Assembly: GCA_905250025.1 (NCBI GenBank)
Contig: CAJNOJ010000025.1
Location: forward strand, 463,632-527,631
Direction of reading: 5' to 3'
From: Adineta ricciae
Lineage: Eukaryota > Rotifera > Eurotatoria > Adinetida > Adinetidae
DNA: 64,000 nucleotides
Shown here: piece by piece, positions 19,476-42,579 of the stretch
Numbering within the stretch: the stretch's first letter is position 1
Layout: each line of letters starts with the position of its first letter
The notes under the pieces: generated by a model
What the model was told of the DNA's origin: nothing
The model's input: the letters and a program-made list of their open reading frames with translations, nothing else
Databases searched by the model: none
Made by a program: the position numbers and the translations under genes

Positions 19476-22041
19476 TGTACACACTTCTCTTGGCGTTGAA
19501 AATCGACATGCAAAAAGGAAATGTCAAACCATCGGAATTTCAAGTTTTGATCAAAGGTGGTGCTGCCTTAGATATGAACGCTGTCGAACCTCGACCAGAT
19601 AAAATGAAGAAATGGTTAACTGATATGACTTGGCTGAATTTAGTCGAACTTTCCAAACTCGCACACTTCTCACAAGTCTTACGACAAGTTGTCAGTAATG
19701 ATAAGACATGGTACAATTGGTTCTTATCTGATGCACCCGAAGAAGTCACGTTTCCTGAAGCATACTCGACTACATTGGATACATTCAAGAAATTATTATT
19801 AGTTAGATCATTTGCACCAGATCGTACATTACCCATGGCCAAGAAATATATTGGAGAATCTCTAGGTGTTCAATACGCTGAAGGTTATATTCTCAATTTA
19901 GAAGCTATGTGGCAAGAATCGGATAAACGTACCCCACTTGTTTGCTTCTTATCGATGGGTTCTGATCCAACGGATAATATCTTGAGCTTAGCCAAGAAAC
20001 AAAACACAGTTTGCGGTACTATCTCCATGGGTCAAGGTCAAGAAGTTCATGCCCGACGTTTATTGCAACAAAGTCAACAAGAAGGCCGATGGATTTTACT
20101 TCAAAATTGCCATTTGGGCTTAGGTTTTCTTGAAGAAATGTTAGACACAGTGACGCAAACCGAACAAGTCGCTGATGCATTCCGCTGCTGGTTAACAACT
20201 GAACCGCATCCACAATTCTCTATCAATGTTTTACAATCATCAATTAAATATACTTTCGAACCACCCCAAGGTGTCAAAGCTGGTCTCAAACGTACATTTG
20301 CTGGTCTAACACAAGTAAATTATCTTACTTTTTCCATTGATACACATTCTTCATGCTGCCAAATGTTCTTTTAGGAAGTTGTCGATGTTAGTAACTTCTT
20401 TGAATGGAAAGTTATGTTATACACAGTTGCATTTCTGCATACAACCGTACAAGAACGTCGTAAATTTGGTCCACTCGGATGTACGTTGAGCGAACCATCT
20501 GTTCTGTAATATATTCTTGATGTAATAACATTTTTCTAGGGAACATTCCGTATGAATTCAATCAATCAGATTTTTCGGCTACCATTCAATTCATTCAAAA
20601 TCATATGGATGAAATGGGTTCGAAATGGAATGTCTCATGGCCAACTGTTCGATACATGATCGGTGAAGGTAAAGTCTTTCTATTCGAAATGAGTCTTTCT
20701 CTGTTTTCAAATCAATCTTTCTTTTCAAATTTTTAGTTCACTATGGTGGTCGTGTCACGGATGACTTCGACAAACGATTACTTAACACTTATACACGTGT
20801 TTGGTTTCTCGATAATATGTTCACGGAGAAATTTGAATTCGCACCGAATTATAAGATTCCGCGTTGTAAAACTATTCAAGAATTCCGTACGCATGTCGAA
20901 TCTATGAGCTTGTTCGACAGTCCAAATGTTTTTGGTCTTCATCCAAACGCTGATATCACCTACCAGAAGAATACAGCTGATTCGATTCTCGCGACAATCG
21001 TTAACATTCAACCAAAAGATGCCGGTGCTGGCGGTGGTGAAACACGTGAATCAGTTGTCTATCGTCAGTGCGACGATATGTTAAGTAAACTACCCGAAGA
21101 TTATATTCCACACGAAGTTCGAGGTGCTTTACAAAAACAAGGAGCTTTACAACCATTGAACATCTTCTTAAAACAAGAAGTTGATCGTATGCAACGTGTC
21201 ATCAGCGTTGTACGTAATACACTGAAAGATTTGAAATTAGCTATCGATGGTACAATCATTATGAACGAGAACTTGAAAGATGCTTTGGATAATATTTACG
21301 ATGCACGTGTACCAGCGACATGGAGAAAAGTTTCGTGGGATTCAGCAACATTAGGTTTCTGGTTTAGTGATTTGTTAGATCGTAACCAACAATTCTTCAC
21401 GTGGTTGTTCAGTGGACGACCAAATGTGTTCTGGCTTACTGGATTCTTCAATCCTCAAGTAAATTCGTTGCTTCGTAGGATTTTCTATTGATCATGATCT
21501 CGTTTAGGGTTTTCTAACTGCTATGCGACAAGAAATTACTCGTAATCACAAAGGTTGGTCATTAGATAATGTCGTTCTTGCCAACGATGTGATGAAAGTG
21601 GCCACGAAAGAAGAAGTAACATCAGCACCATCGGAAGGTGTTTACATCTATGGATTGAAAGTTGATGGTGCCGCATGGCGTATGTCTCGTGAAAAAGGTG
21701 GTCATCTTGCTGATCCTCCTCCAAAACAACTCTACTCGGACTTGCCAGTCGTACACGTAAGTTACTCATTTTTTCCTTCATTCGCTCCAATACAGATAAT
21801 CTGATCGCCTAGGTTTACGCAACAAATGAACCTAAGCCGTTGGGCAATTCTTATTACGTTTGTCCAGTCTACAAGAAACCACGACGTACTGATTTAACAT
21901 ATATATTCTCGTTATCATTGAAGATTAATAACAACAATCCGGATTTCTGGTAAGAATTCTGATTTGTAACTTTTCTGTTGGAAAATATTTGTTATATTTA
22001 GGTGTTTACGTGGTGTGGCTCTCCTTTGCGATACAAAATAA
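19476..22041 (+). CDS. DNAH5/DNAH8: DNAH5/8 C-terminal part, AAA6 and C-terminal domain (contig C)
   Basis: This encodes the end of the outer-arm dynein heavy chain. It opens mid-exon at [15 protein letters not shown] (helical start of the AAA6 region) and continues with [27 protein letters not shown]-type [51 protein letters not shown], the C-terminal domain [20 protein letters not shown], and the terminal [11 protein letters not shown] stop at 22039-22041. The ending LRGVALLCD is typical of DNAH5/8. Short introns (for example 20315-20374 and 21459-21508) separate the exons. About 330 residues between GPFNQ (contig A) and this start are missing from the window. AATAAA at 22181-22186 is the likely polyadenylation signal. 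Confidence 0.94.
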
Positions 22042-22180
22042 TCAACATAAACGATTCGATATATTTTACTATACTGTTTTGTTATCAAGCAATAGGGAGC
22101 TTTATTAATTAATGAAATAGTTTTGCTCCACGTTTGTGTGTGTGTATTATATTTATATTTTTTGTGTTACAGAAATCAAC

Positions 22181-22222
22181 AATAAAAAGCACGAGCTTTC
22201 TGATTATAGGACGTTGTTTATT
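22181..22222. terminator. Facing polyadenylation signals of convergent genes
   Basis: AATAAA on plus (22181-22186) can end the dynein transcript. TTTATT at 22217-22222, which is AATAAA on minus, can end the IF-annexin transcript coming the other way. The two signals lie 30 bases apart, so the mature 3' ends should touch or overlap. In the second copy (about 34809-34855) the plus signal is kept but the minus one reads TTTACT. Confidence 0.5.
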
Positions 22223-22315
22223 AAAGGGAAAGGAATGATGGGATCAAAATAGCTTTGATTACAAGTCTGATAATCATCTCAATCACATTTTTTTTACTAG
22301 GAAAGATAAGAAGTT

Positions 22316-25300
22316 TCATTGTTCATTTGCTTCAGACTCATGCATTGTCGTTAATGAAAAAAATTGACGTTGCTTAGTTCTCAATGGTCTTGCATTGACT
22401 GTTAATGCATTTCTATCAGAAAATATTTTGGTAAAATTGCCGTTTGTGTGAATGCTTTGCAATTTGGGCATGGAATAGTCCGTAACACTTTGCATCATTG
22501 TACGTCCAGTGCCTGTATCCCTATTGGATCGATCGACTGGTTCTCGCCATTGAACTCCTGATCGATCAAATCGTGTTGATTGATATGAAGCCTGGAATTG
22601 TGTGTCTGCAGTATTTCCTCCACCACGTTGACGAAGAAATTCTAAAATCGCACGTTTGTAATTGCCGAAGACTTCCAACTAAAAGAAAACAATGACTACA
22701 GAAAGTAGTTTTTGGAAAAAAACGAACTTGAATATGATCGTGAAGATAATATGTTGTAAGTTTTTCATATTCAACTCTGATCTGTGCAATATCAATCTCA
22801 CCGCGAGTGACGATGATTCGATTCAAATCGTCTTCGTTTGCTTTAACATTCTGGAAAATTCAAATGAGGAGAAAGCAAATGTATCGATGACAATTTTACT
22901 TTAAGACATTTCTTCAATTCATCAGCGAAAAACCGTGCTTGATTGCGAATCAACCGAACTAAAAACATCAAAATTATGATCTAAAGCACAGATCTCTTCA
23001 TCATAGTCATACTAATAGCGATCAGTGTGTGATAAAGATGTCCTGCAATATTCTTTTGTATAGTTTGTTCAATATCCACATGACTGTATTGCTGATAAGC
23101 GGTAAATATTTGTGCCAATTGTGCATTACTAAGCAAATAAATGAGATCTGTTCGATGTTCGATAGGAAAACAAACCTTCTTGTACACAAAAGTCGAACAA
23201 GAGTCGATCCATCAACTCGCCATCTCGACTCCGTTTCGAATAATTCTTTTGCATCTTGAATAATTTCATTGTCAACGATAGCCACCTCTTCCGGTCGATT
23301 CGATCGAAGAAGAGCAACTAACAAATGTTTCGAATGATCATCACGATCACTGCGAAGATCTTCTTCAATTGTGCTTCGAAACACTAAAGACGAAGCAATA
23401 TTTTTAGTACATCAGTTTCAAGAGCGTCTTACATTTGAAGTAAGCTTGTCGAACATTTTGAATATGTTGGCTCGTGCGAGTAAAAACAAGTTCAACCAGA
23501 ACGTTTCGATCGATTGTTGTTCGGTTTAGTATTCGTCGTAATTCAAAACAATCGTGTTCAATCGGAGATAATAATAACAATCTTAGAAATTTACTCAGAC
23601 TGTCATCAGATATCTTCTCTAAGTCATCACCAAGATTCTAAAAATAGATCAATGATCAAAACACAGAGGAAGTCTCCATTGCTTTCGTGTACTTTTTTGA
23701 ACAATTGTTTATATTGATCGCGGATTTGTAATCGTTGCGCCAGTGTTCGGCAACAGATAACTCGAATGACACTCAATTCACCGATCGGCGTATCGTTCAA
23801 CAATCGATGCAATGTTCGACAATCTAAACAAACAAAACACATCTAATGTTTTGATTATATCGCATCTGCTGTCTCAAACCTTGTACAATTGTTGATACCA
23901 AATTGTCCTACAAGGAGAAAGAGAGTTTCCATCCAATACCTAATCATTCAGCTTACATTTTCATTCTTCTTCAATATTGAACGTTGTGCGGACTGAATCG
24001 TATTGATAGTTGATGAGTCGCGGTAGTTAGACGATAAATCTTGTAATGACGAGCGGAATGTTTCTTTGGGTAAGGAAGATTGGTGCGAAAGAGAGGTGAA
24101 ATCACTTTCATGAATGGTCACACGTTTGGCTGTATGATTTTGATGATGGTTCAATCGTTCTCGATATTCTTCTATTCTTTGTTTGTGTATCTTTCGAATA
24201 CGTAATGCGTCATCCAACTGTTTTTCCCGATCTCGAATTAATTGGTTCAGTGTTGTTAAATATCGTTCTTTTTCTAATCTTGACTGATCACTGTATGCAG
24301 CAGTGTTTTTCGTCTTGATCTCTTCCATTGTGAAAACGATTTTTCTTTGCTTTTCTCGCTCGATCGTGATCTGTTGTTGAATTTCTTTCAGCGATACTTG
24401 GTACTGTTGTAATTGAACTTCATGATCTCTCGTCACTGTTGGCATAGGTCGAGTTTTATTCAATTGAAGACGATACAATTCCAATTCAAAGTTTCGGTGT
24501 AATTCTTCTCGGTACACTTCGATTTTCTTTTCGTATTCCTGCCGAATACGTTGTAATTCTTGACTTAATTGATCTGAGAAATACGTCGACGATTGAAAAC
24601 CAGCTACTTGGGAAATATCAATCGATCGTCGTTCTTCGTCAATTGCAGTCGTCCGAATATCTTCATTGGTGATCTTTTCATTTCGTAAGATTTCAAGTTC
24701 GGCTTCTAAAGTCTGTTTAGCAAAATTTTCTTCGTCGAGTAGATAACGTAAGCGAGTTTTTCGGGCATGAAGTGCTTGATTCTTTAAAAGATAAAATTTA
24801 CTTTCGTCATCTAAATTTCGTGTCCGACGATGAAGAAATTGAGCTTCAGCGTTGTTCTGAGCAATTCGCTGTTCATAATTGAATAATTCCTGACTGGTTT
24901 GATCTCGTTTGGCTAAGATATATTTATATTGTTCATCATGGCTTGGTATCTTCTTATCCAATGCGTTCGCTTTCGTTTCTAATGCTGATTTGGACTGGCT
25001 ACCTTCGTACAAGAGTTTCTTGGCATTTTCCAATTCACTTTTATACATTTTTTCGATAATCGAACGATTCTGATGAATATTCTTTTCCAGCCATTCAATT
25101 TGCAAAAGCTGAGCACGATTATGTGTTTCTAAACTACAACATCTCAGTATAGTCACACACAATACTTCAGTCAGTTTCGACAACTCCCGATGCTCATCAA
25201 TGATACGTTCACCATTGATGCTATGCAATGATGGAATAGTTGTGAAGTTCGGAGGTTGAACAAGTGTTGCGAGACCAAGGTCGTTGGTTGTTACAACTGC

Positions 25301-25489
25301 ATGGTTCGTGCCAACATTTGACCAAGCTATACCGCGAAAAGGACCTTGAAAAGCATTCGGCGCAATTACACGTGGTCGAATGTATTTTATGCCGGACGCA
25401 TCATCGTCGGACCTTGTCGATTTTGTTCGCTGATACATATCGGGTTGATATTTACTATCATCAAACTTTGCAACAGTTTTCGTAGTCAT
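22316..25489 (-). CDS. Intermediate-filament rod fused to four annexin repeats (copy in contig C)
   Basis: A long first exon (25489 down to about 23957) encodes a 95-residue head and then a coiled-coil rod of intermediate-filament type. MYKSELENAKKLL matches coil 1B (MYQAELDEARKLL in lamin/IF), LDEENFAKQTLEAELEILRN matches the coil 1B end, LSQELQRIRQEYEKKIEVYR matches coil 2 (ELxxAIRDIRxEYDxKI), and RIRKIHKQRIEEYRERL fits the rod end where IF proteins have LEGEE. Smaller exons then encode four annexin-like repeats: RTLHRLLNDTPIGELSVIRV, then FELRRILNRTTIDRNVLVEL, then IIQDAKELFETESRWRVDGS, and last IIVTRGEIDIAQIRVEYEKL. The repeats end with GNYKRAILEFLRQRG, and a Ser/Thr-rich tail follows to stop at 22316. 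Usual annexin GxGTD calcium loops are not evident. The lamin tail (LTD) is absent. The protein is about 900 residues, likely a cytoplasmic filament protein with an altered membrane- or partner-binding module. Confidence 0.85.
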
Positions 25490-26056
25490 TTTTCATCAAA
25501 TAAACACATAAAGATCTGGACACACGTGACAGTTTAGCTTTTATCAACGACTTGATAACAATACAACGATTTTTTTTACTTTAATTTTGGTTGAATACCA
25601 CAGATAAGGTTATTTTGGTTTTACATTTTGGACTGTCTTTATTTGTCTTTTCTTTCTAGTCTACTATCAACCTACTTCATCAAAAAGAACGACATCTTGT
25701 TTAGCTCGAATTCACGAGCAAGAGAAACTCTATGCTTTTCTCTTGTCATTGATCATTTGAGATGAAGTCCTTGATAGTCAAGAACAACATATCATCGTGA
25801 GAATGTTTATCTGCGGTGTTGTTGTTAACCTTCGATGATCTTTCAATAACATTTCAGCAAAGCAGCGCGATCATATCGATTGTTGTCATTAGAAATTCTC
25901 ATAAAAAAAACGTAACAAAACAAAATTCTTTTCAAGTTAATAAAGAAACAATTTTCCTACAAAAAAATGAACGAACAAACTGTTCTGATACTACTAGAAA
26001 ACACACGCACGCACGCACACACATTCTTGCTGAGATAACGTATATTTCGTAGAAGA
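25490..26056. other. spacer between IF-annexin start and STARD7-like end
   Basis: AT-rich spacer with a CA-rich microsatellite near 26003-26025 (ACACACGCACGCACGCACAC). It must hold the IF-annexin promoter on its left and the STARD7-like 3' UTR on its right. The 78-residue plus-strand frame at 25816-26052 has low-complexity composition and is not kept intact in the second copy, so it is not called. Confidence 0.4.
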
Positions 26057-27391
26057 TCAATCAGATACATCGTCAAAATAACGACATTGAGGCAGTGAAT
26101 CAATGCTGAGATATTCTTTAGCTAGATAGATAAGAAATCAACAGAAATAATGTCGTGTTTCAATGAAAATGTCTTACATTTCGGAAGTTTCTTTGCTGCT
26201 ACATGTAATTTTTCTACAAAACTTGGAATTCCTATACGAAATCAACGAAAGCAATGAATTTTAGACATTGATTAGATTTACCACTCTGCGCTATGTATGA
26301 GTAAGTCGATGTTGGCATGGAAGCTTTGGCATCTTCATGATAGGTTAACAAAAACATCATTCCTTTCTAGAAAACAGACAGAGAACGAATTCGAAGAGCA
26401 AATTTCCGTTTGTCTAACTTCATCGAGTTTTGTTTTCGATTGGATGATCATCGATGATTCATATTTATTCACTCGAACACATTTCTTATCACTATGAACA
26501 TCAGGATGATCGATTGAATGACATTTGATAATAATTTTCGGTGGGAAGTTCGCAGATGTATCCAAACAGTATCGTCGGACGTAAAGGTAATCACGATGGT
26601 TAAATGGAAATGGAAATTTTTGTGTCCAATGAACGATATCACTCTGCGAATTCTCATTTGTCTCAACTACCGACAGACGCAAAGCGTGATCATCCCATTT
26701 CATTCGGTAATCAAGATCGAGCTGCAGACAAAAAGCAAATCCACATAGAAGATTCAGTTAGCAAATGAAAACTTACTTACTTGTACTTGGAAGAATACTA
26801 ATGCAGATATATCGTTGAATGTGCCGAAAACTAAGTAGATAAACAAGGAATAATCGAGAATGACCGTGAATTGAGTCTTACTTTTGTATGAATACACTTG
26901 AAGATCGTCGTCATATTTACGAAATAGCATCAGATGATCTTTGCGGAGGAGTTTTTCCCAACCGAGCGATATCAATATATCCTCGATTTGACCGTTCGTC
27001 ATGTTTAGTAGATAATCGTCGGAAGTGGCTTCTTGTCTAAACAAATCTCTTTTGTCAAGGAAAAGATTGACGATTTGACGTTCACTTACAATTCTCTATC
27101 ACTGACTCCATCATTCTCCCATGAGAACGCCGTCGCTGCAGCGGTCAATGCTCCGATGACAGATGATGCGAATACAGTTGATTGTGAATGAGATTTGGAT
27201 TGTGAATGTTTCCATCGGTAATCATTATCATTCGTTTTCTTCGAGTTAATCTGCTCGATTTTACGATTATTAATAAATAATAGTGAACTAAGCGAAAGTT
27301 TATATCGGTGTCGTTTACATTCGTTGCAAACGAGCTTTATCGGCCATTTCTTCATCGATGTCGAACATCGAAGAAACCATTCAATCCACAT
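26057..27391 (-). CDS. STARD7: STARD7-like START-domain phosphatidylcholine transfer protein (copy in contig C)
   Basis: STARD7 carries phosphatidylcholine to mitochondria. The first exon, starting ATG at 27391, encodes a basic N-terminus (MWIEWFLRCSTSMKKWPIKL), plausible as mitochondrial targeting, and ASSVIGALTAAATAF, a possible membrane helix. The START domain follows over several exons: LGWEKLLRKDHLMLFRKYDD, VFGTFNDISALVFFQVQ, LDLDYRMKWDDHALRLSVVE, VHWTQKFPFPFNHRDYLYVR, VRVNKYESSMIIQSK, YSYIAQSG, IPSFVEKLHVAAKKLPK and the last exon YLSIDSLPQCRYFDDVSD, stop 26057-26059. The order and wording fit vertebrate STARD7 closely (VFGTYTDVTPRQFFNVQ, FPYPMYSRDYVYVRRY). An intron inside the DE|KGMMFLLTYHED segment removes a stretch that otherwise reads as open frame. 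Confidence 0.88.
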
Positions 27392-27532
27392 TTGTCTTTT
27401 TCTAGAAAAAAATCAACTTTTACTATGAAATATCCTTGTAAAAATAGTTCAATCGATTACAAACAAAACAAATTAAATAATATTATTTCATTACTCTTCA
27501 CACATATAGCAAAACAAACAGAAAAAAAAATA

Positions 27533-29953
27533 TCAAAATCGAACTTTCTCTTTCAAGATTAATTCGTAGATATCTGGTGTTAATTTCTCGTATGCTTGTT
27601 TTTGTTGATTTAAATAATAGATGTCTTCGGTAATTCGGCTCAGATCATAACCTTCTTCTTGGAAGACAGTTTTCTTCACTTTGAAAGTTCCAGTCAATTC
27701 GATATGTTTTGTGAAACGTAGAAAACATGGCCGCGCATACGAAGGTAAACCTTGCTTTTTCAGCTCATTCGCTATGGTTGATATATTGATTGGCGATGAA
27801 GGATCATCAAGAATCACAGCCATACCAGCTTTGCCTTCGCATTCTATACGAAATGGAATAAAACGAGATTTTCAGATTGCTCGTATCGAGTCAAACGAAC
27901 AAACCTGGAATAGACACTCCGAAAACCACGACGTCGTTGCGTTTGAGAATAGTCATAAGAATATTTTCCACTTCAACAGTTGAAACATTCTCACCTTTCC
28001 AACGAAATGTATCACCGGTTCGATCACAAAAGTAAAGATATCCATATTTATCTGCATAAATCACATCACCTAATCGGAAAACGAAGGTATTCGATTCGAA
28101 ATCGAAATCATTTTCATTCTTACCAGTGTTAAATACTTGATCACCGATTTTGCAAACATTATCGATAATCTTTCGATTTGTACCTGAGGCATTATTCACA
28201 TAACCATCGAAAGCATTGAACACACTCTTTTTTATCAGTCCTACTAGTAAACCACGTTCTCCTGCATTGCACGGGATGCATAGTTTCGTTTTTTCATCAC
28301 GCAATGGTTCCATTGTTTCAGGCTCGAATCGAATAAGAAACGAACCAAGAATACGGGGAACGATGATGGAAGAAAATCCACAAGCACCAGGATATGAATC
28401 AATATTAACTATCAAAACAACGAACTAATACACGAACATTTTATTTTTAAAGGGAGAAACTTACAAAAATAAGCATTGCTTTCCGTTGCACCATAGAATT
28501 CATAAATATTTTTTATGTTAAAGCGTTTAGAAAACGACATCCATAAATTTTGTCGAAGACCATTTCCCGAACAGAACTTAATCGAATGTTTCTGATCGAA
28601 TTCACTCGGCGGTTGAGCAAGTAAAAATCGACACAATTCACCAACATAGGTAAAACCCTAACAAGTTAAACTACAAATACTTATCAAACAGAAGAGCTTA
28701 CAAACTTACTGTACATCGATATTTAACACAATCTTTCCAGAAATTCGATGCAGAAAACTTCTTTCGTATTACGGTTGTACAACCACCGACAAGACTAAAT
28801 AATTTTCGAAGAAAATCTTCCCTTACCCCATTCGATATTGATTTGTACATACCTGTAGGTGATACAAACCCAACCACCTGTACAAAACAAACGAATTCTT
28901 TCCTATTCGTTGACGAAGAACAAAACTTACCAAGTGAATGATAGAGTGGAAGTGTGTTGTACATGATATCTGTAGGTTTGATACCTGTCCCACAAAGAAA
29001 ACCAAATGTACCGAGAAGAAATCTGTGAACAAATAAAATGAAAACGACGTTGTTCGAAAGTTTACGTTCAACTAACCGTGAATGTTTAATCACTGCTGCT
29101 TTGGGTAAACCAGTGGTACCCGACGTGAAAATATAGAAAACAGGATCTAATCAAAGCACAATTCAATATTCAATTCAATCAAACAAAGGTTATTGTTGGT
29201 TAGTATACGTTTTAAGTCGTATGGAAGAGGTTTAGGTGGCTGGGTTGAACATACTTGCAATTGGTCATACAATTGAATTGATTCAAAGGAAGTGGATGTT
29301 TCATTTGTTGTTATTGATTCTTTTGGATCGAATAGATAAACTTTATTGATACCTAATTCGTTCAATTCATTTTCAATTTCTATATCAAATTAAGCTGAAA
29401 GTCATTCATTCAATTCGACAAATCATTTTACCTGAAAGAATGTGCGTTGATGTTATAACACTTTTGGCGTTCACTGTACTAATGGAATGAATAAGTGGCT
29501 TTCCACGAAGATTTGTATTGATGAGCGCAGTTATACAACCAATTTTGCTCATTCCCACCCAAACGCACGGATACTCCAGTGAATTCTCTAAAATAAGTGC
29601 AATGATATCACCATGCTTGAAACCTTCCGCTGAGAAGAAGTTTGCCAATTGATTTGTTAAATCTTCAATCTTAATGAAGAGAAACTTAGAAAACAGATTG
29701 TCTTTATTCTTCAACTAACTTGCTGAAACGAAAGAGATTTGTCATCAAGAATCAAACACGCTTTTGATTGATACTGTTTGACATTGCCGCGGAATATTTC
29801 TATGAAGTCTCTTTTTCGGAAAACATTATACTTGAGCAGAAGATGATATTTGATCAAAATGTACAAGCCGACAAGATCACGAGGTAGAGTCTTAATCACA
29901 ATAAATACAAATTCGAATATTCGTTGAGTGAAAGACCAGATCTGATCAAACAT
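27533..29953 (-). CDS. SLC27A: SLC27 family fatty-acid transport protein / very-long-chain acyl-CoA synthetase (copy in contig C)
   Basis: This is a membrane acyl-CoA synthetase that traps fatty acids as CoA esters. The first exon (ATG 29953) encodes an N-terminal hydrophobic segment ([13 protein letters not shown]) and [19 protein letters not shown]. Later exons give [20 protein letters not shown], the AMP-binding signature [13 protein letters not shown] (rc of about 29105-29145), [69 protein letters not shown] and the FATP motif [20 protein letters not shown], ending near [20 protein letters not shown] and KEKVRF. The [17 protein letters not shown]-like motif points to the FATP1/FATP4 branch. 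A 54-nt intron (GTAAGAATG to CGATTAG) sits between VFNTG and [10 protein letters not shown] and has no stop in frame. Confidence 0.88.
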
Positions 29954-30434
29954 CTAGAATAACAAGTCACAAAGTAAAGAAACATCGAAGAATTGTACGT
30001 AGAAGCAAGGCCATATCTCAACTCGTACCCCGACGAGAGTAGTCAATGAGTAGATGTTTTTATATAAATTTCATGAGAACAAACTAATGTATCTCAAAGT
30101 CCGTACTTGATTTACTGAGAAAGAAAAGAAAAATTCTTTATTCTTCGAAAAAAAAAACAAGAAAAAGAGCCAAAAAGAACGTACGAAACGTATGTTGATG
30201 ATATATTCAGGGTCAAAGTACATCCACACACAATTCGAACCTTTTTTCAAAGTCGTAAAATACAGGCACAATGTGTGTTAATATGTTTACAGAGAAGAGA
30301 AAAATGAGAGCGAGAGGAAAAGAAAACGAATGAGAGAAAGAAAAAAACAGAATGATAATAATAGTTCGAAGCAGAAGTGATAAGTTACACACAAAACATA
30401 TAAAACACTGTTGTAACGTTTGATTTGCCTTCAT
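29954..30434. other. SLC27 promoter side and RNF111-like 3' UTR
   Basis: Purine-rich on plus (GAGAGAAAGAAAAAAACAG near 30330-30350). TTTATT near 30136, which is AATAAA on minus, is a candidate end for the RING gene transcript. The 66- and 73-residue minus frames here are hydrophobic and low-complexity, and are not called. Confidence 0.35.
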
Positions 30435-32099
30435 CTAACAAACGTAATCGCCGAAATCTCCCCGAAAATCAATATCAATACGACAGATTGGACATCGTTT
30501 ACTTTGAGTTAACCATCTATCAACACATTCAATGTGAAATAGATGCATACACGGTAAACGGCGAACATCATCATTATGATCGAATTCACATAAACATATA
30601 GTACATTTTTCATCTGTTGATATCGTTCGTTTTTCATATTTATATGATAGTGTACGTGCATTAATATGTTCTTGATTTGCACCTATATTACCACCATTAT
30701 TCAGGCCGTTTAATTGTTCTTCCATACGGAGTAATTCTTCGACGACATGTTCGGCACGTTCGCTGTTTAGGAACGGATGATGATGATGGTGATGATGATG
30801 ATGACTACGCAGAAGGAGTGGATTCCGAAATGGACGAAATAGTAAAGGTGTCGACGGCCATTGATTATTCTGTGAGGTCGTATTTATTGCCACGTGCATA
30901 CTCGGATTAGTTGTACCTAATGTCAAATTATATGTATTCGTCGATGATGATGGTGATGCAGCCGTTGCTGGTTGTATTGTTAAATGAGCATGAATATTAT
31001 TATTTGTTGTTGTTGCTGTTGTTGGATGAGTAAGAATAGCATGTAATTGTTGATTAGCAGTAAGGATGGTAGTTGTAGGTGAAGAAACGGATGGCGACGT
31101 TTGATGTTGAAATGAACTGAGTCGTTGTCGACGTAGTTCGGATGTTAGTTGTTGACGATACTGATGACGTAAGTGAGCAGGATTGTGATTGTGGTTATGA
31201 TTATGATGATGATGATGAAAATGAAGATGTTGAACAGGTGGAGGTTGTGGAAGAGATGCGAGCGCAACTAAATCAATCAGGTAACGTAACAATATCTCTT
31301 GTATAAAAATAAACTTACCGGCACTTGCAGCAGCAGCAGCGAGAGCGACGGTTTGTTGAGTCGTTGCTGTTAGCGTTGGAATAACATTGGGAGTTTGATT
31401 GGGAGGATAGACAATAAACGGTGATATAGATGTAGCTGAAGATGAATTGGATCCGTTGGATGGAGTGATGACTGTAGACGTGTTTGGTGTACGATGAGAA
31501 CATGAACACGATGAATTCGAAGGATTTGGCGTCGGTAGAGCATGTCTTCGAGAGGATAGAAGTTGTCGAGGAAAAGTTGAAGATACTGTTGGAGTTGTCG
31601 ACAATGCTTGTGATTGTTGTTGTTGTTGCTGTTGATACTGTTGTTGATTCGCATAAAGTGCGGGATGATACGAAATCGATCTGAATTGTTGTTGTTGTTG
31701 TTGCTGCTGCTGTTGGTGGATAGATCGAAAGTGATTCATATGAGTAGTCATATTTGATGGTAATAATGAATCTTGTTTCGTTTGATCAACAATCATACTA
31801 TTACTATTTGACAACAGCGATGATGAAGATGGTCTTTGCCCGAACAAAGCATTCGGTGATTCATCATCATCCTCATCGTCATCGTCGTCTTCGTCATCAT
31901 CTTCATCGCTATCATCGCTTGACTCTACACTCGTCGTGACCGTTGTTGTTTGTCGTCGCTGACTATCCATTCCATTTGCTTCATCATATAATGAAGCAGT
32001 TACAGCAGCAGCTATGCATGCCGCGGCAGTCGCGCGTGATGACGCCAAATCATTTGTTGTTGTCGATGCTGACGAAAGGATTCGTCGCGTAGAATTACT
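30435..32099 (-). CDS. RNF111: Arkadia (RNF111/RNF165)-like RING-H2 E3 ubiquitin ligase, 5' end cut by gap (copy in contig C)
   Basis: The C-terminal RING-H2 is [20 protein letters not shown] followed by [20 protein letters not shown] and CRIDI, with all C3H2C3 ligands present. [13 protein letters not shown] and WL..KCPICR are hallmarks of Arkadia/RNF165. Just upstream, [14 protein letters not shown] and an NxGANQ segment followed by LSYKYEKR match Arkadia's NRG region (YEELLHLEERLGNVNRGA.. YKKR). The rest is low-complexity: poly-His (8-9 residues), poly-Gln, Ser/Thr/Asn-rich stretches, and an acidic block of about 18 Asp/Glu. In animals Arkadia ubiquitinates SKI/SnoN and Smad7 and boosts TGF-beta/BMP signalling; that role here is inferred. 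The 5' end is lost at the N at 32100; the full gene is in the second copy. Confidence 0.85.
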
Positions 32100-32100: not shown

Positions 32101-34668
32101 ACTTGTACACACTTCTCTTGGCGTTGAAAATCGACATGCAGAAAGGAAATGTCAAACCATCCGAATTTCAAGTTTTGATCAAAGGTGGTGCTGCCTTAGA
32201 TATGAACGCTGTCGAACCTCGACCAGATAAAATGAAGAAATGGTTAACTGATATGACTTGGCTGAATTTAGTCGAACTTTCCAAGCTCGCACACTTCTCA
32301 CAAGTCTTACGACAAGTTGTCAGTAATGATAAGACATGGTACAATTGGTTCTTATCTGATGCACCCGAAGAAGTCACATTTCCTGAAGCATACTCGACTA
32401 CATTGGATACATTCAAGAAATTATTATTAGTTCGATCATTTGCACCAGATCGTACATTACCTATGGCCAAGAAATATATTGGAGAATCTCTAGGCGTTCA
32501 ATACGCTGAAGGTTATATTCTCAATTTAGAAGCTATGTGGCAAGAATCGGATAAACGTACACCACTTGTTTGCTTCTTATCCATGGGCTCTGATCCAACG
32601 GATAATATCTTGAGCTTAGCCAAGAAACAAAACACAATTTGCGGTACGATCTCCATGGGTCAAGGTCAAGAAGTTCATGCTCGACGTTTATTGCAACAAA
32701 GTCAACAAGAAGGCCGATGGATTTTACTTCAAAATTGCCATTTGGGCTTAGGTTTTCTTGAAGAAATGTTAGACACAGTGGCACAAACCGAACAAGTCGC
32801 TGATACATTCCGCTGCTGGTTAACAACTGAACCGCATCCGCAATTCTCTATCAATGTTTTACAATCATCAATCAAATATACTTTCGAACCACCCCAAGGT
32901 GTCAAAGCTGGTCTCAAACGTACATTTGCTGGTCTGACACAAGTAAATTATCTCACTTTTTCCATTCATACAAGTTCTTTATGCTTCCAAATGTTCTTTT
33001 AGGAAGTTGTCGATGTTAGTAACTTCTTTGAATGGAAAGTTATGTTATACACAGTTGCATTTCTGCATACAACCGTACAAGAACGTCGTAAATTCGGTCC
33101 ACTCGGATGTACGTTAAGCGAATCATCTACTTTGTAACATTTTCTTGACCGAATAACATTTTTCTAGGGAACATTCCGTATGAATTCAATCAATCAGATT
33201 TTTCGGCTACCATTCAATTCATTCAAAATCATATGGATGAAATGGGTTCGAAATGGAATGTCTCATGGCCAACTGTCCGATACATGATCGGTGAAGGTCA
33301 GTCTTTCTATTCGAAATGAGTCTTTCTCTGTTTTCAAAGCAATCTTTTTTTTTCAAATTTCTAGTTCACTATGGTGGCCGTGTCACGGATGACTTCGACA
33401 AACGATTACTTAACACTTATACACGTGTTTGGTTTCTCGATAATATGTTCACGGAGAAATTTGAATTCGCACCAAATTATAAGATTCCACGTTGTAAGAC
33501 CATTCAAGAATTCCGTACGCATGTCGAATCGATGAGCTTGTTCGACAGTCCAAATGTTTTTGGTCTTCATCCAAATGCTGATATCACCTACCAGAAGAAT
33601 ACAGCTGATTCGATTCTCGCTACAATCGTTAACATTCAACCAAAAGATGCCGGTGCTGGTGGTGGCGAAACACGTGAATCAGTTGTCTATCGTCAGTGTG
33701 ACGATATGTTAAGTAAACTGCCCGAAGATTATATTCCACACGAAGTTCGAGGTGCTTTACAAAAACAAGGAGCTTTACAACCATTGAACATCTTCTTAAA
33801 ACAAGAAGTTGATCGTATGCAACGTGTCATCGGCGTTGTACGTAATACATTGAAAGATTTGAAATTAGCTATCGATGGAACAATCATTATGAACGAAAAC
33901 TTGAAAGATGCTTTGGACAATATCTATGATGCACGTGTACCAGCAACATGGAGAAAAGTTTCGTGGGATTCCGCAACATTAGGTTTCTGGTTCAGTGATT
34001 TGTTAGATCGTAATCAACAATTCTTCACGTGGCTGTTCAGCGGACGACCAAATGTGTTCTGGCTTACTGGATTCTTCAATCCTCAAGTAAATTCGTTGCT
34101 TCATAGGATTCTCTATTGATCATGATCTCGTTTAGGGTTTTCTAACTGCTATGCGACAAGAAATTACTCGTAATCACAAAGGCTGGTCATTGGATAATGT
34201 CGTTCTTGCCAACGATGTGATGAAAGTGGCCACGAAAGAAGAAGTAACATCAGCACCATCTGAAGGTGTTTACATCTATGGATTGAAAGTCGATGGTGCC
34301 GCATGGCGTATGTCTCGCGAAAGAGGTGGTCATCTTGCTGATCCTCCTCCAAAACAACTCTACTCGGACTTACCAGTCGTACACGTAAGTTACTCATTTT
34401 TTCCTTCGTCCGCTCCAATACAGATAATCTGATCGCCTAGGTTTACGCAACAAATGAACCTAAGCCGTTGGGCAATTCTTATTACGTCTGTCCAGTTTAC
34501 AAGAAACCACGACGTACTGATTTAACATATATATTCTCATTATCATTGAAGATTAACAACAACAATCCGGATTTCTGGTAAGAATTCTGATTTGCAACTT
34601 TCCTATTGGAAAATATGTGTTATATTTAGGTGTTTACGTGGTGTGGCTCTCCTTTGCGATACAAAATA
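32101..34668 (+). CDS. DNAH5/DNAH8: DNAH5/8 C-terminal part (contig D, second copy of 19476-22041)
   Basis: Same exons and ending ([11 protein letters not shown], stop 34666-34668) as the copy at 19476-22041. It starts a few bases further left (ACTTGTACAC). Protein differences are few, for example QNTVCG/QNTICG, DTVTQT/DTVAQT, DAFRCW/DTFRCW, RVISVV/RVIGVV and REKGGH/RERGGH. This is the other haplotype of the same gene end. It has no start codon of its own, so it cannot be an independent complete gene. Confidence 0.93.
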
Positions 34669-34944
34669 ATCAACACGAACGATTCGATATATTTTATTAT
34701 ACTGTCTTGTTATCAAGCAATAGGGAGCTTTATTAATTAATGAAATAGTTTTGCTCCACGTTTGTGTGTGTGTATTATATTTATATTTTTTGTGTTACAG
34801 AAATCAACAATAAAAAGCACGAGCTTTCTGATTATAGGACGTTTTGTTTACTACGGGAAAGGAATGATGGGATCAAAATAGCTTTAATTACGAGTCTAAT
34901 AATCATCTCAATCACAATCTTTTTAATAAGAAAGATAAAAACTT

Positions 34945-37900
34945 TCATTGTTCATTTGCTTCAGACTCAGGCATTGTCGTTAATGAAACAAATTGACGCT
35001 GATTAGTTCCCAATGGTCTTGCATTGACCGTTAATGCATTTCTATCAGAAAATATATTGGTAAAATTGCCTTTTGTGTGAATGTTTTGCGGTTCGGACAT
35101 GGAATACTCCGTAACACTTCGCGTCATTGTACGTCCAGTGCCTGTATCTCTATTGGATCGATCGACTGGTTCTCGCCATTGAACTCCTGATCGAAAGAAT
35201 CGTGCTGGTTGACGTGAAGTCTGGGAGTGTGTGTCTGAAGTATTCCCTGCACCACGTTGACGAAGAAATTCTAAAATCGCACGTTTATAATTGCCGAAGA
35301 CTTCCAGCTACAAGAAAACAATGACTATAGAAAATAGATTTTGAGAGAAAAACGAACTTGAATATGATCGTGGAGATTATATGTTGTAAGTTTTTCATAT
35401 TCAACTCTGATTTGTGCCATATCAATCTCACATCGAGTGACGATGATTCGATTCAGATCGTCTTCGTTTGCTTTAACATTCTGGAAAATTCGAATGAGGA
35501 GAAAGCAAACGTATCGATGACAATTTTACTTTAAGACATTTCTTCAATTCATTCGCGAAAAATCGTGCTTGATTGCGAATCAATCGAACTAAAAACATCA
35601 AAATTATGAACTAAAACACAGACCTCTTCACCATAAGCATACTAATAGCGATCAGTGTGTGATAAAGATGTCCTTCGATATTCTTTTGGATAGTTTGTTC
35701 AATATCCACATGACTGTATTGCTGATAAGCGGTAAATAATTGTGCCAATTGTGCATTACTAAACAAACAAATGAGATCTGTTCGATTCTCGATAGGAAAA
35801 CAAACCTTCTTGTACATAAAAGTCGAACAAGAGTCGATCCATCAACTCGCCATTTGGACTCCGTTTCGAATAATTCTTTTGCATCTTGAATAATTTCATC
35901 ATCAACGATAGCAACCTCTTCTGGTCGATTCGATCGAAGAAGAGCAACTAACAAATGTTTCGAATGATCATCACGATCAGTGCGAAGATCTTCTTCAATT
36001 GTGCTTCGAAACACTAAACACGAATCAATCTTTTTAGTTTATCAGTTTCAAGAACGTCTTACATTTGAAGTAAGCTTGTCGAACATTTTGAATATGTTGG
36101 CTCGTGCGAGTGAAAAGGAGTTCAACCAAAACGTTTCGATCGATTGTTGTTCGGTTTAGTACTCGTCGTAATTCAAAACAATCGTGTTCAATCGGAGATA
36201 ATAATAACAATCTTAGAAATTTACTCAGACTGTCATCAGATATCCTCTCTAAGTCATCACCAAGGTTCTAAAAGTAGATCAATGATCAAAACACAAAGTA
36301 AATTTCTATTGCTTTCGTGTACTTTTTTGAACAATTGTTTATACTGATCGCGGATTTGTAATCGTTGAGCCAGTGCTTGGCTACAGATAACTCGACTAAC
36401 ACTCAATTCACCGATCGGCGTATCGTTCAACAATCGATGCAATGTTCGACAATCTAAACAAACAAACACATCTAATACTTTGATTATATCGCATCTGCTG
36501 TCTCAAACCTTGTTCAACCGTTGATACCGAATAGTCCTACAAGGAGAAAGAGAGTTTCCTTCCAATATCTAATCATTCAGCTTACGTTTTCATTTTTCTT
36601 CAATATTGAACGTTGTGCGTACTGAACCGTATTAGTAGTTGATGAAACACGGTAATTAGACGATAACTCTTGTAATGACGAGCGGAATGTTCCTTTTGGT
36701 AAGGAAGATTTGTGCGAAAGAGAGGTGAAATCACTTTCATGAATGGTCAGACGTTTGGCTGTATGGTTTTGATGATGGTTCAATCGTTCTCGATATTCTT
36801 CTATTTTTTGTTTGTGTATCTTTCGAATACGCAATGCGTCATCCAACTGATTTTCTCGATCTCGAATTAATTGGTTCAGTGTTGTTAAATATCGTTGTTT
36901 TTCCAATCTTGACTGATGATCACTGTGTGCAGCAGTGTTTTTTGTCTTGATTTCTTCAATTCTGAAAACGATATTTCGTTGCTTTTCTCGCTCGATCGTG
37001 ACCTGTTGTTGAATTTCTTTCAACAATTCTTGATACTGTTGCAATTGAACTTCATGGTCTCTCGTCACTGTTGGCGCAGGTCGAATTTTATCCAATTGAA
37101 GACGATACAATTCTAATTCAAAATTCCGGTGCAATTCTTCTCGGTACACTTCGATTTTCTTTTCGTATTCCTGTCGAATACGTTGCAATTCTTGACTTAA
37201 CTGATCTGAGAAATACTTTGACGGTTGAAAACCAGCTACTTGGGAAATATCAATGGACTGCCGTGCTTCGTCGATCGCAGTCGTCCGAATATCTTCATTG
37301 GTGATCTTCTCACTTCGTAAGATTTCAAGTTCGGTTTCTAAAGTCTGTTTAGCAAAATTTTCTTCGTCGAATAGGTAACGTAAGCGAACTTGTCGGGCAT
37401 GAAGTGCTTGATTCTTCAAAAGATAAAATTTACTTTCGTCATCTAAATTTCGTGTCCGACGATGAAGAAATTGGCCTTCAGCGTTGTTCTGAGCAATTCG
37501 CTGTTCATAATTGAATAATTCCTGAGTGGTTTGATCTCGTTTGGCTAAGATATATTTATATTGTTCATCATAGCTTGGTATCTTCTTATCTAATGCGTTC
37601 GCTTTCGTCTCTAATTCTGGTTTGGACTGGGTACCTTCGTACAAGAGTTTCTTGGCATTTTCCAGTTCATTTTTATACATTTTTTCGATAGTCGAACGAT
37701 TCTGATGAATATTATTTTCCAGCCATTCAATTTGCAAAACCTGAGCACGATTATGTGTTTCTAAATTACAACATCTCAGTATAGTCACACACAATACTTC
37801 AGTCAGCTTCGACAACTCCCGATATTCATCAATGATACGTTCACCATTGATGCTATGCAATGATGGAATAGTAGAGAAGTTCGGAGGTTGAACAAGTGTT

Positions 37901-38121
37901 GCGAGACCATGGTCGGCGGTTGTTACAACTGCATGACTGGTACCAACATTTGACCAAGCTATACCGCGAAGAGGACCTTGAAAAGCATTCGGCGCAATTA
38001 CACGTGGTCGAATGTATTTTATGCCAGACGCATCTTCGTTGGACCTTGTCGGCTTTGTTCGCTGATATACATCGGATTGATATTTACTATCATCAAACTT
38101 TGCAACAGTTTTCGTATTCAT
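34945..38121 (-). CDS. Intermediate-filament rod fused to four annexin repeats (copy in contig D)
   Basis: Second copy of the gene at 22316-25489 with the same exon plan: a long IF-rod exon starting at 38121, then annexin-repeat exons down to stop at 34945. It has intact frames and the same degenerate calcium loops. Substitutions are visibly denser than in the neighbouring dynein copy: the heads read MTTKTVAKFDDSKYQPDMYQ and MNTKTVAKFDDSKYQSDVYQ, the second rod segment carries LDKIRPAP against LNKTRPMP, and the annexin part reads DQKRLLSLMMK-type changes in shadow frames only. One residue is added in the rod (HSDHQSRLEKQRY against YSDQSRLEKERY). Preservation of both frames argues that the fusion is a real, used gene. 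Confidence 0.84.
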
Positions 38122-38682
38122 TTTTCATCAAATAAACACATAAAGATCTGGATACATGCGACAGTTTAGCTTTTATCAACGACTTGATAACAAAACGACG
38201 ATTCTTTTTACTTTAATTTTGGTTGAATACCACAGATAAGCTTATTTTGGTTTTACATGTTGGGCTGTCTTTATTTGCCTTTTCTTTTTAGTCTACTATC
38301 AACTTACTTCATGAAAAAAACGACATCTTGCTTAACTTGCATTCACGAGCAAGAAGAGCTCTATGTTTTTCTCTTGCCATTGATCGTTTGAGATGAAGTC
38401 CTTGATAGTCAAGAACAACATATCATCGTGAGAATGTTTATCTGCGATGTTGTTGTTAACCTTCGATGATCTTTCAATAACATTTCAGCAAAGCAGCGCG
38501 ACCGTATCGACTCTTCTCATTAGAAATTCTCATAAAAAAGCATAACAAAACAAAATTCTTTTCGAGTTAATAAAGAAATAATTTTCCTACAAAAAAATGA
38601 ACGAACAAACTGTTTTGATACTACTAGAAAACACACACACACACACGCATTCTTGCTGAGATAACGCATATTTCGTAGAAGA
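38122..38682. other. spacer between IF-annexin start and STARD7-like end (second copy)
   Basis: Counterpart of 25490-26056. The CA microsatellite near 38630-38646 is a purer (AC)n here than in the first copy, where it is interrupted by G. The small open frame of the first copy is not conserved. No gene is seen. Confidence 0.4.
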
Positions 38683-40018
38683 TCAATCAGATACATCGTC
38701 AAAATAACGACATTGAGGCAGTGAATCAATGCTGAGATATTCTTTAGCTAGACAGATAAGAAATCAACAGGAATAATGTCGTATTTCAATGAAAATGTCT
38801 TACATTTCGGAAGTTTCTTTGCTGCTACATGTAGTTTCTCTACAAAACTTGGAATTCCTAAACGAAACCAACGGAAGCAATGGATTTTAGACATCGATTA
38901 GATTTTACCACTCTGCGCTATGTATGAATAAGTCGACGTTGGCATAGAAGCTTTGGCATCCTCATGATAAGTTAACAAAAACTTCATTCCTTTCTAGAAA
39001 ACATACAGAGAACGAATTCAAAGAGTAAATTTTCGTTTGTCTAACTTCATCGAGTTTGGTTTTCGATTGGATGATCATCGATGATTCGTATTTATTCACT
39101 CGAACACATTTCTTATCACTATGAACATCAGGATGATCGATTGAATGACATTTGATAATAATTTTCGGCGGGAAGTTCGCAGATGTATCCAAACAGTAAC
39201 GTCGGACGTAAAGGTAATCACGATGGTTAAATGGAAATGGAAATTTCTGTGTCCAATGAACGATATCGCTTTGCGAATTCTCATGTGTGTCAACTACCGA
39301 CAGGCGCAAAGCGTGATCATCCCATTTCATTCGATAGTCAAGATCGAGCTGAAGACAAAACGTAAATCTACATAGAAGATTCAGTCAGCAAAGGAAAACT
39401 TACTTACTTGTACTTGGAAGAATACTAATGCAGATATATCATTGAATGTGCCGAAAACTAAGTAGATAAACAAGTGATAATCGAGGATGATCGCGGATTT
39501 CGTCTTACTTTTGTATGAATACACTTGAAGATTATCATCATATTTACGAAATAGCATCAGATGATCTTTGCGGAGGAGTTTTTCCCAACCGAGCGATATC
39601 AGTATATCCTCGATTTGACCGTTCGTCATGTTTAGCAAATAATCATCGGAAGTGGCTTCTTGTCTAAATAAATCTCTTTCGTCAAGGAAAAGATTGGCGT
39701 TTTAACGTTCACTTACAATTCTCTATCGCTGACTCCGTCATTTTCCCATGAGAAAGCCGTCGCTGCAGCGGTCAAAGCTCCAATGACAGATGATGCGAAC
39801 AGAGTTGATTGTGAATGAGATTTGGATTGTGAATATTTCCATCGGTAATCATTATCATTCGTTTTCTTCGAGTTAATCCGCTCAATTTTACGATTATCAA
39901 TAAATAGTAGTGAACTAAGCGAAAGTTTATATCGATGTCGTTTACATTCGTTGCAAACGAACTTTATCGGCCATTTCTTCATCGATGTCGAACATCGAAG
40001 AAACCATTCAATCCACAT
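38683..40018 (-). CDS. STARD7: STARD7-like START-domain protein (copy in contig D)
   Basis: Second copy of the gene at 26057-27391 with the same start (MWIEWFLRCSTSMKKWPIKF), START-domain segments (VFGTFNDISALVFFQVQ, FPFPFNHRDYLYVRRYCLD) and ending (RYFDDVSD, stop 38683-38685). Differences are few and conservative, for example QSTVFASS/QSTLFASS and VETNENS/VDTHENS. The frame is intact. Confidence 0.86.
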
Positions 40019-40162
40019 TTGTCTTTTTCTAGAAAAAGAATCAACTTTTACTATGAAATATCCTTGTAAAAATAGCTCAATCGATTACAAACAAAACAAA
40101 TTCAATAATATTATTTCATTACTCTTCACACACATTGCAAAACCGACAGAAAAAAAAAATGA

Positions 40163-42579
40163 TCAAAATCGAACTTTCTCTTTCAAGATTAATTCGTAGA
40201 TATCTGATGTTAATTTCTCGTACGTTTGTTTTTGCTGATTTAAGTAATAGATGTCTTCGGTAATTCGATTCAGATCATAGCCTTCTTCTTGGAAGACAGC
40301 TTTCTTCACTTTGAATGTTCCAGTCAATTCGATATGTTTTGTCAAACGTATAAAACATGGCCGCGCATACGAAGGTAAACCTTGCTTTTTCAGCTCATTC
40401 GCTACGGTTGACATATTGATTGGCGATGAAGGATCATCAAGAATCACAGCCATGCCAGCTTTGCCTTCGCATTCTATACGAAATGGCATAAAACGAGATT
40501 TTCGGATTGCTCGTATCGAGTCAAACGAACAAACCTGGAATGGACACTCCGAAAACCACGACGTCGTTTCGTTTGAGAATAGTCATAAGAATATTTTCCA
40601 CTTCCACAGTTGAAACATTCTCACCTTTCCATCGAAATGTATCACCGGTTCGATCACAAAAGTAAAAATATCCATATTTATCTGCATAAATCACATCACC
40701 TAATCGGAAAACGAAGGTTGTCGATTCGAAATCGAAATCATTTCACTCTTACCAGTGTTAAATACTTGATCACCGATTTTGCAAACATTATCAATAATCT
40801 TTCGATTTGTACCTGAGGGATTATTCACATAACCATCGAAAGCATTGAACACACTCTTTTTTATCAGTCCTACTAGTAAACCACGTTCTCCTGCATTACA
40901 CGGAATGCATAGTTTCGTTTTTTCATCACGCAATGGTTCCATTGTTTCCGGATCGAATCGAATAAGAAACGAACCAAGAATACGAGGAACGATGATGGAA
41001 GAAAATCCACAAGCACCAGGATATGAATCAAGATTAACTATCAAAACAACAAACTAATACACGAATATTTCATTTTCAAAGAGAGAAACTTACAAAAATA
41101 AGCATTACTCTCCGTTGCACCATAGAATTCATGAATATTTTTTATGTTGAAGCGTTTAGAAAACGGCATCCATAAATTTTGTCGAAGACCATTTCCCGAA
41201 CAGAATTTAATCGAATGTTTCTGATCAAATTCACTCGGCGGTTGAGCAAGTAAAAATCGACATAATTCACCAACATAGGTAAAGCCCTGACAAGTTAAAT
41301 TACAAATACCTATCAAACAGAAGAGCTTACAACTTACTGTACATCGATATTTGACACAATCTTTCCAGAAATTCGATGCAGAAAACTTCTTTCGTATTAC
41401 GGTTGTACAACCACCGACAAGACTAAATAATTGTCGAAAAAAGTCGTCCCTTACTCATTCGATGTTGATTTGTACATACCTGTAGGTGATACAAACCCAA
41501 CCACCTGTACAAAACAAACGAATTCTTTCCTATTCGTTGACCAAGAACAGAACTTACCAAGTGAATGGTAGAGTGGAAGTGTATTGTACATGATATCTGT
41601 GGGTTTGATACCTGTCGCAGTAAGAAAACCAAATGTACCGAGAAGAAATCTATGAACAAATCAAACGAAAACGAAGTTCTTCAAAAGTTTACGTTCAACT
41701 AACCGTGAATGTTTAATCACTGCTGCTTTGGGTAAACCAGTGGTACCCGACGTGAAAATATAGAAAACAGGATCTAATCAAAGCACAGTTCAATATTCAA
41801 TTCAATCAAACAAAGGTTATTGTTGGTTAGTATACGTTTTAAATCGTATGGAAGAGGCTTAGGTGGTTGGGTTGAACATACTTGCAATTGGTCATACAAT
41901 TGAGTTGTTTCAAAAGAAGTAGAGGTTTCATTTGTTGTTATTGATTCTTTTGGATCGAATAGATAAACTTTATTGATACGTAATTCGTTCAATTCATTTT
42001 CGATTTCTATATCAAATCAAGTTGAACATCGTTCATTCAGTTCGACCAATCATTTTACCTGAAAGTATGTGTGTTGATGTTATGACACTTTTGGCGTTCA
42101 CTGTACTTATGGAATGGATAAGTGGCTTTCCGCGAAGATTCGTATTGATGAGCGCAGTTATACAACCAATTTTACACATTCCCACCCAAACGCACGGATA
42201 CTCCAGTGAATTGTCTAAAATAAGTGCAATGATATCACCATGCTTGAAACCTTCTGCTGAGAAGAAGTTTGCCAATTGGTTTGTTAAATCTTCAATCTTA
42301 ATGGAGAGAAACTTAGAAACTAGTTGTCTTTGTTTTTCAACTAACTTGCTGAAACGAAAGAGATTTGTCATCAAGTATCAAACACGCTTTTGACTGATAC
42401 TGTTTGACATTGCTGCGGAATATTTCTATGAAGTCTCGTTTTCGAAAAACATTATACTTGAGTAAAAGATGATATTTGATCAAAGTGTACAAGCCCACAA
42501 GATCACGAGGTAGAGTCTTAATCACAATAAATACATATTCGAATATTCGTTGAATGAAAGACCAGATTTGATCAAACAT
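40163..42579 (-). CDS. SLC27A: SLC27 family fatty-acid transport protein / acyl-CoA synthetase (copy in contig D)
   Basis: Second copy of the gene at 27533-29953: same N-terminus ([20 protein letters not shown]), [34 protein letters not shown]-type motif and KEKVRF end. A one-base length difference near 40740 looks like a frameshift if the open frame is read straight through. It lies inside the small intron after VFNTG (GTAAGA donor), so the spliced protein is unaffected. A local change is [12 protein letters not shown] against GTFGFLCGTGIK. Confidence 0.86.

Follow-up and report, generated by a model that had tools for sequence, protein, structure and literature searches.

All positions given here refer to the window, which is the whole 64,000-nt stretch of contig C25 that was analysed. 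On the minus strand of the window, at 22316-25489, lies a gene (copy A) that begins with an ATG at 25489, ends with a TGA at 22316, and consists of nine exons that encode 921 amino acids (Table 1). All introns of copy A are of the GT..AG type, and the spliced frame is free of internal stops. The initial annotation had described this region as one minus-strand gene that leads from an intermediate-filament (IF)-type rod into four annexin repeats, and the nine exons with their single open spliced frame bear this out. Copy A thus very probably represents one gene for a chimeric cytoskeletal protein, in which a head and an IF-type rod are followed, after a short linker, by a complete annexin core and a tail that evolves fast. 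One detail had to be corrected, as the segment MYKSELENAKKLL, which had been assigned to the head, sits in the rod.

The claim that a lamin tail domain is missing also held: the corresponding profile PF00932 has 24 matches in the genome, none of which is on C25 or on C21, the two contigs that bear the fusion. The proteins end in ANEQ (copies A and B) or HDEE (gene C, see below), and thus neither in CaaX nor in the C-terminus of bdelloid lamins.

Table 1. Positions of copies A and B, their exons, and the direct repeat units that carry them.
Feature	Positions in window	Strand	Remarks
Copy A, exon 1	23957..25489	-	1533 nt, 511 aa; head ~1-98, IF-type rod 99-446, linker start
Copy A, IF-type rod	24152..25195	-	residues 99-446; PF00038 positions 2-307 of 313
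Copy A, exon 2	23880..23907	-	28-nt linker exon; phase 0 in, phase 1 out
Copy A, exon 3	23693..23823	-	131 nt; start of annexin repeat 1
Copy A, exon 4	23433..23637	-	205 nt; annexin repeats 1-2
Copy A, exon 5	23176..23383	-	208 nt; annexin repeats 2-3
Copy A, exon 6	23013..23128	-	116 nt; annexin repeat 3
Copy A, exon 7	22900..22958	-	59 nt; annexin repeats 3-4
Copy A, exon 8	22728..22850	-	123 nt; annexin repeat 4
Copy A, exon 9	22316..22678	-	363 nt; rest of repeat 4, then C-terminal tail up to the TGA stop
Copy B, exon 1	36586..38121	-	1536 nt, 512 aa
Copy B, exons 2-9	34945..36536	-	36536-36509, 36453-36323, 36267-36063, 36013-35806, 35758-35643, 35588-35530, 35480-35358, 35307-34945
12.6-kb direct repeat, first copy	19476..32099		carries gene A; single N's at 19475 and 32100
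12.6-kb direct repeat, second copy	32104..44720		carries gene B; 94.8% identical to the first copy; single N's at 32100 and 44784

Copy B is probably an allele of copy A

The second copy in the window (copy B, 38121-34945, minus strand) likewise has nine exons with the same boundaries as in copy A, and it encodes 922 amino acids, one codon more, without a stop. Both copies are carried by a large direct repeat. The only N's in the window are five single ones, at 16431, 19475, 32100, 44784, and 46346, and each of them coincides with the end of a direct repeat or is only a few bases away from one. The repeats concerned are 13328-16370 with 16432-19474 (97% identical), the 12.6-kb repeat listed in Table 1, and two short ones.

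The overall dS between A and B is 0.139. For Adineta ricciae, a part of the genome study in PLoS Biol 2018 (PMC5916493) gives mean KS values of 1.27 for ohnologues and 0.135-0.14 for homologues. Because of the single N's at the repeat edges, and because the dS matches that of the published A. ricciae homologues, we regard A and B as alleles, with copy B probably being the homologous allele of A that was laid in tandem by the scaffolder. A true tandem duplication of the gene is conceivable but less probable, as the N's and the dS argue for alleles. As haplotype contigs have apparently been laid end to end, "tandem duplicates" in this assembly need to be regarded with care. The intactness of the second copy had been used to argue that the fusion is no assembly product. 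Copy B is indeed intact, but as it is very likely the other allele, it does not count as an independent copy, and the argument is weaker than it had appeared; it is restored by gene C.

A third copy lies in a collinear block

Gene C is found on contig C21 (L036 5354-2252, minus strand). It has eight exons and encodes 907 amino acids with the same rod-annexin fusion and no internal stop. The core exons of A, B, and C have identical sizes (131/205/208/116/59/123 nt) and identical phases, and the first intron of A and B is missing from C. Between A and C, 187 of 454 positions are identical in head and rod (41%), 148 of 299 in the core (49%), and 17 of 88 in the tail.

Pieces of the window at about 27.5-30.6, 53.5-57.0, and 61.6-64.0 kb match C21 at 166-182 kb and keep their order there; the two contigs are thus collinear at least on one side. 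Many of these neighbouring pieces are 60-85% identical, and others 41-58%. The comparison of the window left of the gene with C21 130-160 kb gave no collinear match, and only three weak places, which were hit by two repetitive reading frames. The dS between A and C is 1.57 in the annexin part and 2.2 overall, which is near saturation. Ancestral tetraploidy has been described for all four bdelloids studied, as stated in a part of PMC5916493. From the collinear block and the A-C dS, seen against the published KS of 1.27 for ohnologues, we infer that gene C is an ohnologue of A/B and that the fusion would be older than the bdelloid genome doubling.

The annexin core is complete

The annexin half of the fusion is certain. 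The PF00191 profile search that had been proposed together with the initial annotation was clearly positive, with an E of 3.9e-46 for spliced A and 1.3e-50 for spliced C, in both cases in four stretches; these Pfam scans of spliced proteins covered A and C, and the repeats of copy B were established by alignment. In the PDB, the best match of the A core was annexin VI (E 1.5e-78 when both of its cores are counted, 7e-42 for the best single stretch), and the alignment covers the whole core. A genome-wide scan with the annexin profile includes pieces of A, B, and C, and none of the 14 control genomes was matched.

The type II calcium loops of annexins follow the pattern GxGT. By this pattern, none of the four loops is present in A or B and one of the four in C, whereas all four are found in core 1 of a two-core annexin on contig C18. 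Of the earlier view that the core serves in docking to membranes or partners, the complete annexin core stands, but docking in the usual, calcium-dependent sense is weakened by the absence of GxGT loops from A and B by pattern.

The rod is a divergent intermediate-filament rod

With exon 1 alone, PF00038 matched copy A with an E of 1.6e-4 (21.8 bits; residues 99-446 on positions 2-307 of the 313 of the profile) and copy B with 1e-5 (25.8 bits; residues 99-447 on positions 2-307). For gene C the E was 3.5e-8 (33.9 bits), in two stretches, the best of which places residues 121-238 on positions 21-138. All three scores are below the cut-off of 40 bits, and with the whole spliced A the match was weaker (E 0.032, 14.3 bits). 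The proposed profile search thus gave a divided answer for copy A, with a match over nearly the full profile in exon 1 alone, but at 21.8 bits against a cut-off of 40. A genome-wide PF00038 scan gave 74 matches, none of them on C25 or C21, and matches below the cut-off also occurred in 5 of 14 prokaryote controls. Because the scan misses C25 and C21 and matches these controls, the Pfam result alone is insufficient for the assignment of an IF rod.

A profile built from the three rod exons was compared with 177,635 PDB sequences. Up to an E of 1, it found lamin A/C twice (8.5e-4 and 1.6e-3), in one case with 267 residues on 267, and a designed coiled coil at 0.62. A second profile, made from the reading frames of five ordinary IFs in this genome, of which two are partial, scored 42.3 bits with A, 57.4 with B, and 85.1 with C. 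Heptad-shuffled controls (300 for each copy) had means of -23.6, -21.6, and -20.1 bits and maxima of -5.2, -3.9, and -2.9 bits for A, B, and C, respectively, and not one of the 300 reached the real score in any copy. With the rod alone, the scores were 35.7, 41.4, and 68.8 bits, as compared to shuffle maxima of 6.9, 1.4, and -2.8. Exon 1 of A furthermore matched an ordinary IF gene on contig C30 with an E of 3.1e-24 in a near-gapless alignment. Taken together, the C30 match with its alignment, the PDB profile, and the shuffle test indicate by sequence homology that the N-terminal half contains an IF rod of divergent sequence.

In a tree of nine rows, the cytoplasmic IF gene on C30 was nearest to the fusions, with a support of 80/86 that is below the accepted mark. 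The rod of the chimera is likely related to this rotifer's own cytoplasmic IF proteins that have no tail domain. That the rod stems directly from a lamin was rejected, as the C30 gene is nearest in the tree, though with the support of only 80/86.

In copy A, the Pfam match spans 348 residues on 306 positions. The 42 extra residues would correspond to the excess that is known for lamin-type over vertebrate cytoplasmic rods. The alignment with ordinary IFs showed that, of the rod-end motifs, LE..N and YR..L are kept, whereas LNDR (changed to LTEV) and LLEG are lost. The regularity of the heptads reached z values of 2.6 in A, 2.1 in B, and 6.6 in C, as compared to 5.5-8.7 in six ordinary IF or lamin rods, and a Fourier analysis of the hydrophobic spacing in A gave no clear peak at 3.5. 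Rod-end motifs trigger the assembly of IFs, as described in a part of PMC10125929. As these motifs are partly eroded, and in copies A and B also the heptad regularity, it is uncertain whether the rod self-assembles into filaments in the ordinary way. Exon 1 of copies A and B was also modelled with AlphaFold, but the model was too poor to count (mean pLDDT 50, pTM 0.25); its low-confidence helices, at 93-162, 167-225, 228-286, 303-344, 351-394, and 401-456, would resemble in their order a coil 1 - linker 12 - coil 2 arrangement.

A proline break, RP.P.VTR, is located in coil 2 (window 24428-24451) and kept in A, B, and C (L036). In two ordinary IFs on C30, prolines are likewise present at the coil 2 break, which is maybe a feature of bdelloid IFs.

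Origin of the annexin part

In core 1 of the annexin on C18, a 46-nt linker exon is followed by exons of 131/205/211/116/59/123 nt, and the phases 0,1,0,1,2,1,0,0 are those of the fusion. By position and phase, exon 2 of copy A is the counterpart of this linker exon, and the linker EGTLVRSNGFDVEQDC of C is similar to QGTLVPFAEFNVERDC of the C18 annexin. The identity between C18 core 1 and the fusion cores is 36-42%. In core 2 of C18 and in an annexin on contig C3, the introns are placed differently from the fusion. A tree of eight rows separated C18 core 1 together with the fusions from the other four rows with a support of 99/99. The C3 annexin was rejected as the source of the annexin part on account of its different introns and its tree position.

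Exon joining is the likely origin because the fusion core shares intron positions and phases with C18 core 1. An IF rod exon would have been joined, at a phase-0 intron, to the linker and core exons of an annexin gene that resembled the C18 gene with its two cores. This joining would have preceded the ancestral bdelloid genome doubling, and the first intron would later have been lost in C. We consider this origin, by way of an intron and before the doubling, to be probable. The exon structure plainly shows one route to such chimeras, the joining of whole exons at a phase-0 intron.

Some further annexin loci were encountered. The two consecutive cores on C18 (L042 700-3930) apparently form one eight-repeat gene with a layout like that of vertebrate annexin VI. 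L038 1215-2396 (minus strand) and L039 976-2154 (plus strand) are open, uninterrupted frames of about 390 amino acids with very divergent annexin-like repeats, and they are likely related copies.

Selection and divergence

Between A and B, dN and dS are 0.046 and 0.152 in the rod and 0.023 and 0.127 in the core; in the tail, dN (0.112) exceeds dS (0.083). In the A-C comparison, dN is lower than dS for both rod and core, with dS near saturation. Judged from the sequence comparisons, linker and tail evolve fast. Gene C looks nearer to the ancestral state than A and B, because its heptads are normal (z 6.6) and one calcium loop is present.

Alternative explanations

As the window contains likely scaffold joins, marked by the five single N's at repeat edges, it was in principle possible that the assembler had joined rod and annexin pieces. 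However, genes A and B and locus L036 are all free of N's, and the same join is present in three separately placed copies, one of which is identical to the extent of only 41-49% with exon sizes conserved, which leaves a practically negligible chance for an artefact. It is also very improbable that we are dealing with two neighbouring genes, in which case the rod exon would run to a stop a few bases into intron 1, and the mRNA of the annexin would start on its own or by spliced-leader trans-splicing. An in-frame TGA does follow right after the first six bases of intron 1 in A and B, and spliced leaders are used in rotifers, but no operons have been reported for these animals, both according to a part of PMC7986045. 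In the unspliced sequence, an in-frame ATG is present upstream of the core at 23842 of A, inside intron 2, and at L036 3771 of C, inside the corresponding intron. As these introns precede repeat 1, an intron-retained, annexin-only product is conceivable in A and C, whereas copy B has no such upstream in-frame ATG. The spliced annexin core contains no Met in A, one in B, and three in C, those of B and C being in repeats 3-4, and the complete lack in A argues against a separate translation of the annexin part. In addition, the distance from the rod exon to the exon of repeat 1 is just 133 bases in A and 50 bases in C, and the frame is kept through splicing in all three copies. A single chimeric gene is the preferred reading.

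If the rod were a generic coiled coil or helical region, the protein would be an annexin with an unusual N-terminal helix and not with an IF rod. The PF00038 scores under the cut-off in all copies, the absence of C25 and C21 from the genome-wide matches, the weak heptads of A and B, and faint matches of C to other coiled-coil families (best E 0.041) agree with such a view. We nevertheless regard it as improbable, since the rod aligns almost without gaps with an ordinary IF of the same genome, both PDB matches with an E below 0.6 are lamin A/C, the real scores were never reached by heptad-shuffled controls, and the only other Pfam match of A and B at an E of up to 1 is to one helix-turn-helix family (0.11 and 0.044). 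A weightier alternative accepts the fusion as real but assumes that its rod no longer builds filaments, so that the protein would be a soluble or junctional adaptor, with A and B drifting from an ancestral function that is better kept in C. The eroded heptads and absent calcium loops of A and B, as compared to the normal heptads and the one loop of C, are in line with this, as is the A-C identity of 41% in head and rod and 49% in the core, when many collinear neighbours have 60-85% (others 41-58%). Yet dN is lower than dS between A and B in both rod and core, every exon is open, and even the low-confidence model still has helices in an order like that of coil 1 - linker - coil 2; we therefore consider the loss of filament formation rather unlikely, although by far not as improbable as a generic coil. 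With moderate confidence, we favour as the best overall explanation a chimeric IF-annexin protein that arose by exon joining and whose filament-bound annexin core would act as a linker.

Possible function

IF proteins normally reach membranes by separate linkers (plakins) or, in lamins, by a lipid tail, and the intracytoplasmic lamina of rotifers is made of IF proteins. In the chimera, the rod could pair with other IF proteins, which would result in filaments, or filament ends, that bear annexin cores. The core would then be a fixed and largely calcium-independent linker to the membrane or to a partner protein, and A and B may be such calcium-independent linkers or adaptors. We tentatively propose this co-assembly and linkage as the most likely mechanism. 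One conceivable site is the syncytial epidermis, whose intracytoplasmic lamina could in this way be held to the plasma membrane; this lamina has been described in a monogonont in a part of PMC13403294. More far-reaching, and in its entirety unlikely, would be the view that the fusions form an ancient bdelloid class of IF proteins with a built-in annexin core, older than the genome doubling, that fixes filaments to a membrane or partner without calcium, perhaps the epidermal lamina to the plasma membrane while the animals dry out and rehydrate. Provided that it is expressed, the chimera would offer a natural experiment on how filaments can be coupled to membranes. Its setting would be a syncytial epidermis, and animals of which some can survive drying.

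Comparison with known systems

An annexin-directed full-text search of the open-access literature, with subscription papers and protein databases outside its scope, had no IF-annexin fusion among the matches listed. Protein databases may contain automatic annotations with this architecture. A term search for "annexin" was negative in PMC4448529 and PMC10125929, both of which deal with Adineta lamins. According to a part of PMC4448529, the lamin of A. vaga has no Ig domain, which is contradicted in a part of PMC10125929.

Unusual lineage-specific layouts with an IF-like rod are known from the PDZ-bearing crustacean "lamins" (PMC4448529) and from the lamin-derived cytoplasmic IF of tardigrades (PMC4829535). 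As far as the available parts of these papers go, the former differ from the fusion in having no annexin, and so does the latter, for which the term search was negative. Nuclear lamins, i.e., lamin A/C and the CaaX-less bdelloid lamins described in a part of PMC10125929, resemble the fusion in that lamin A/C accounts for both PDB sequences found by the rod profile at an E below 0.6. The fusion differs from nuclear lamins by the absence of a lamin tail domain and CaaX, and by a C-terminal half that is annexin. Beside two of the eight lamin-tail loci scanned (L048 and L049, contig C5), a separate short frame ends in VVAEKVVSVK; Table 2 of PMC10125929 gives this as the C-terminus of the Adineta ricciae lamin.

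Much closer to the rod half are the cytoplasmic IFs of this genome (C30, L010/L037), which, like the fusion, are without a lamin tail domain in the reading frames seen. They share with the fusion an equal rod length, the near-gapless alignment, and the prolines at the coil 2 break. The C30 gene nearest to the fusion has a Gly/Ser-rich tail, whereas the fusion has the annexin core and degraded rod-end motifs. For the annexin half, vertebrate annexins with lost calcium loops, which include A9 and A10, are comparable in that a complete core is combined with degenerate calcium sites, but these are stand-alone proteins without a filament rod. The two-core annexin on C18 (L042), with its annexin VI-like layout, shares with the fusion the intron phases, the core exon sizes except for one codon, and the position of the linker exon; it differs by a Pro-rich N-terminal part in place of an IF rod and by the four of four calcium loops that its core 1 has by pattern.
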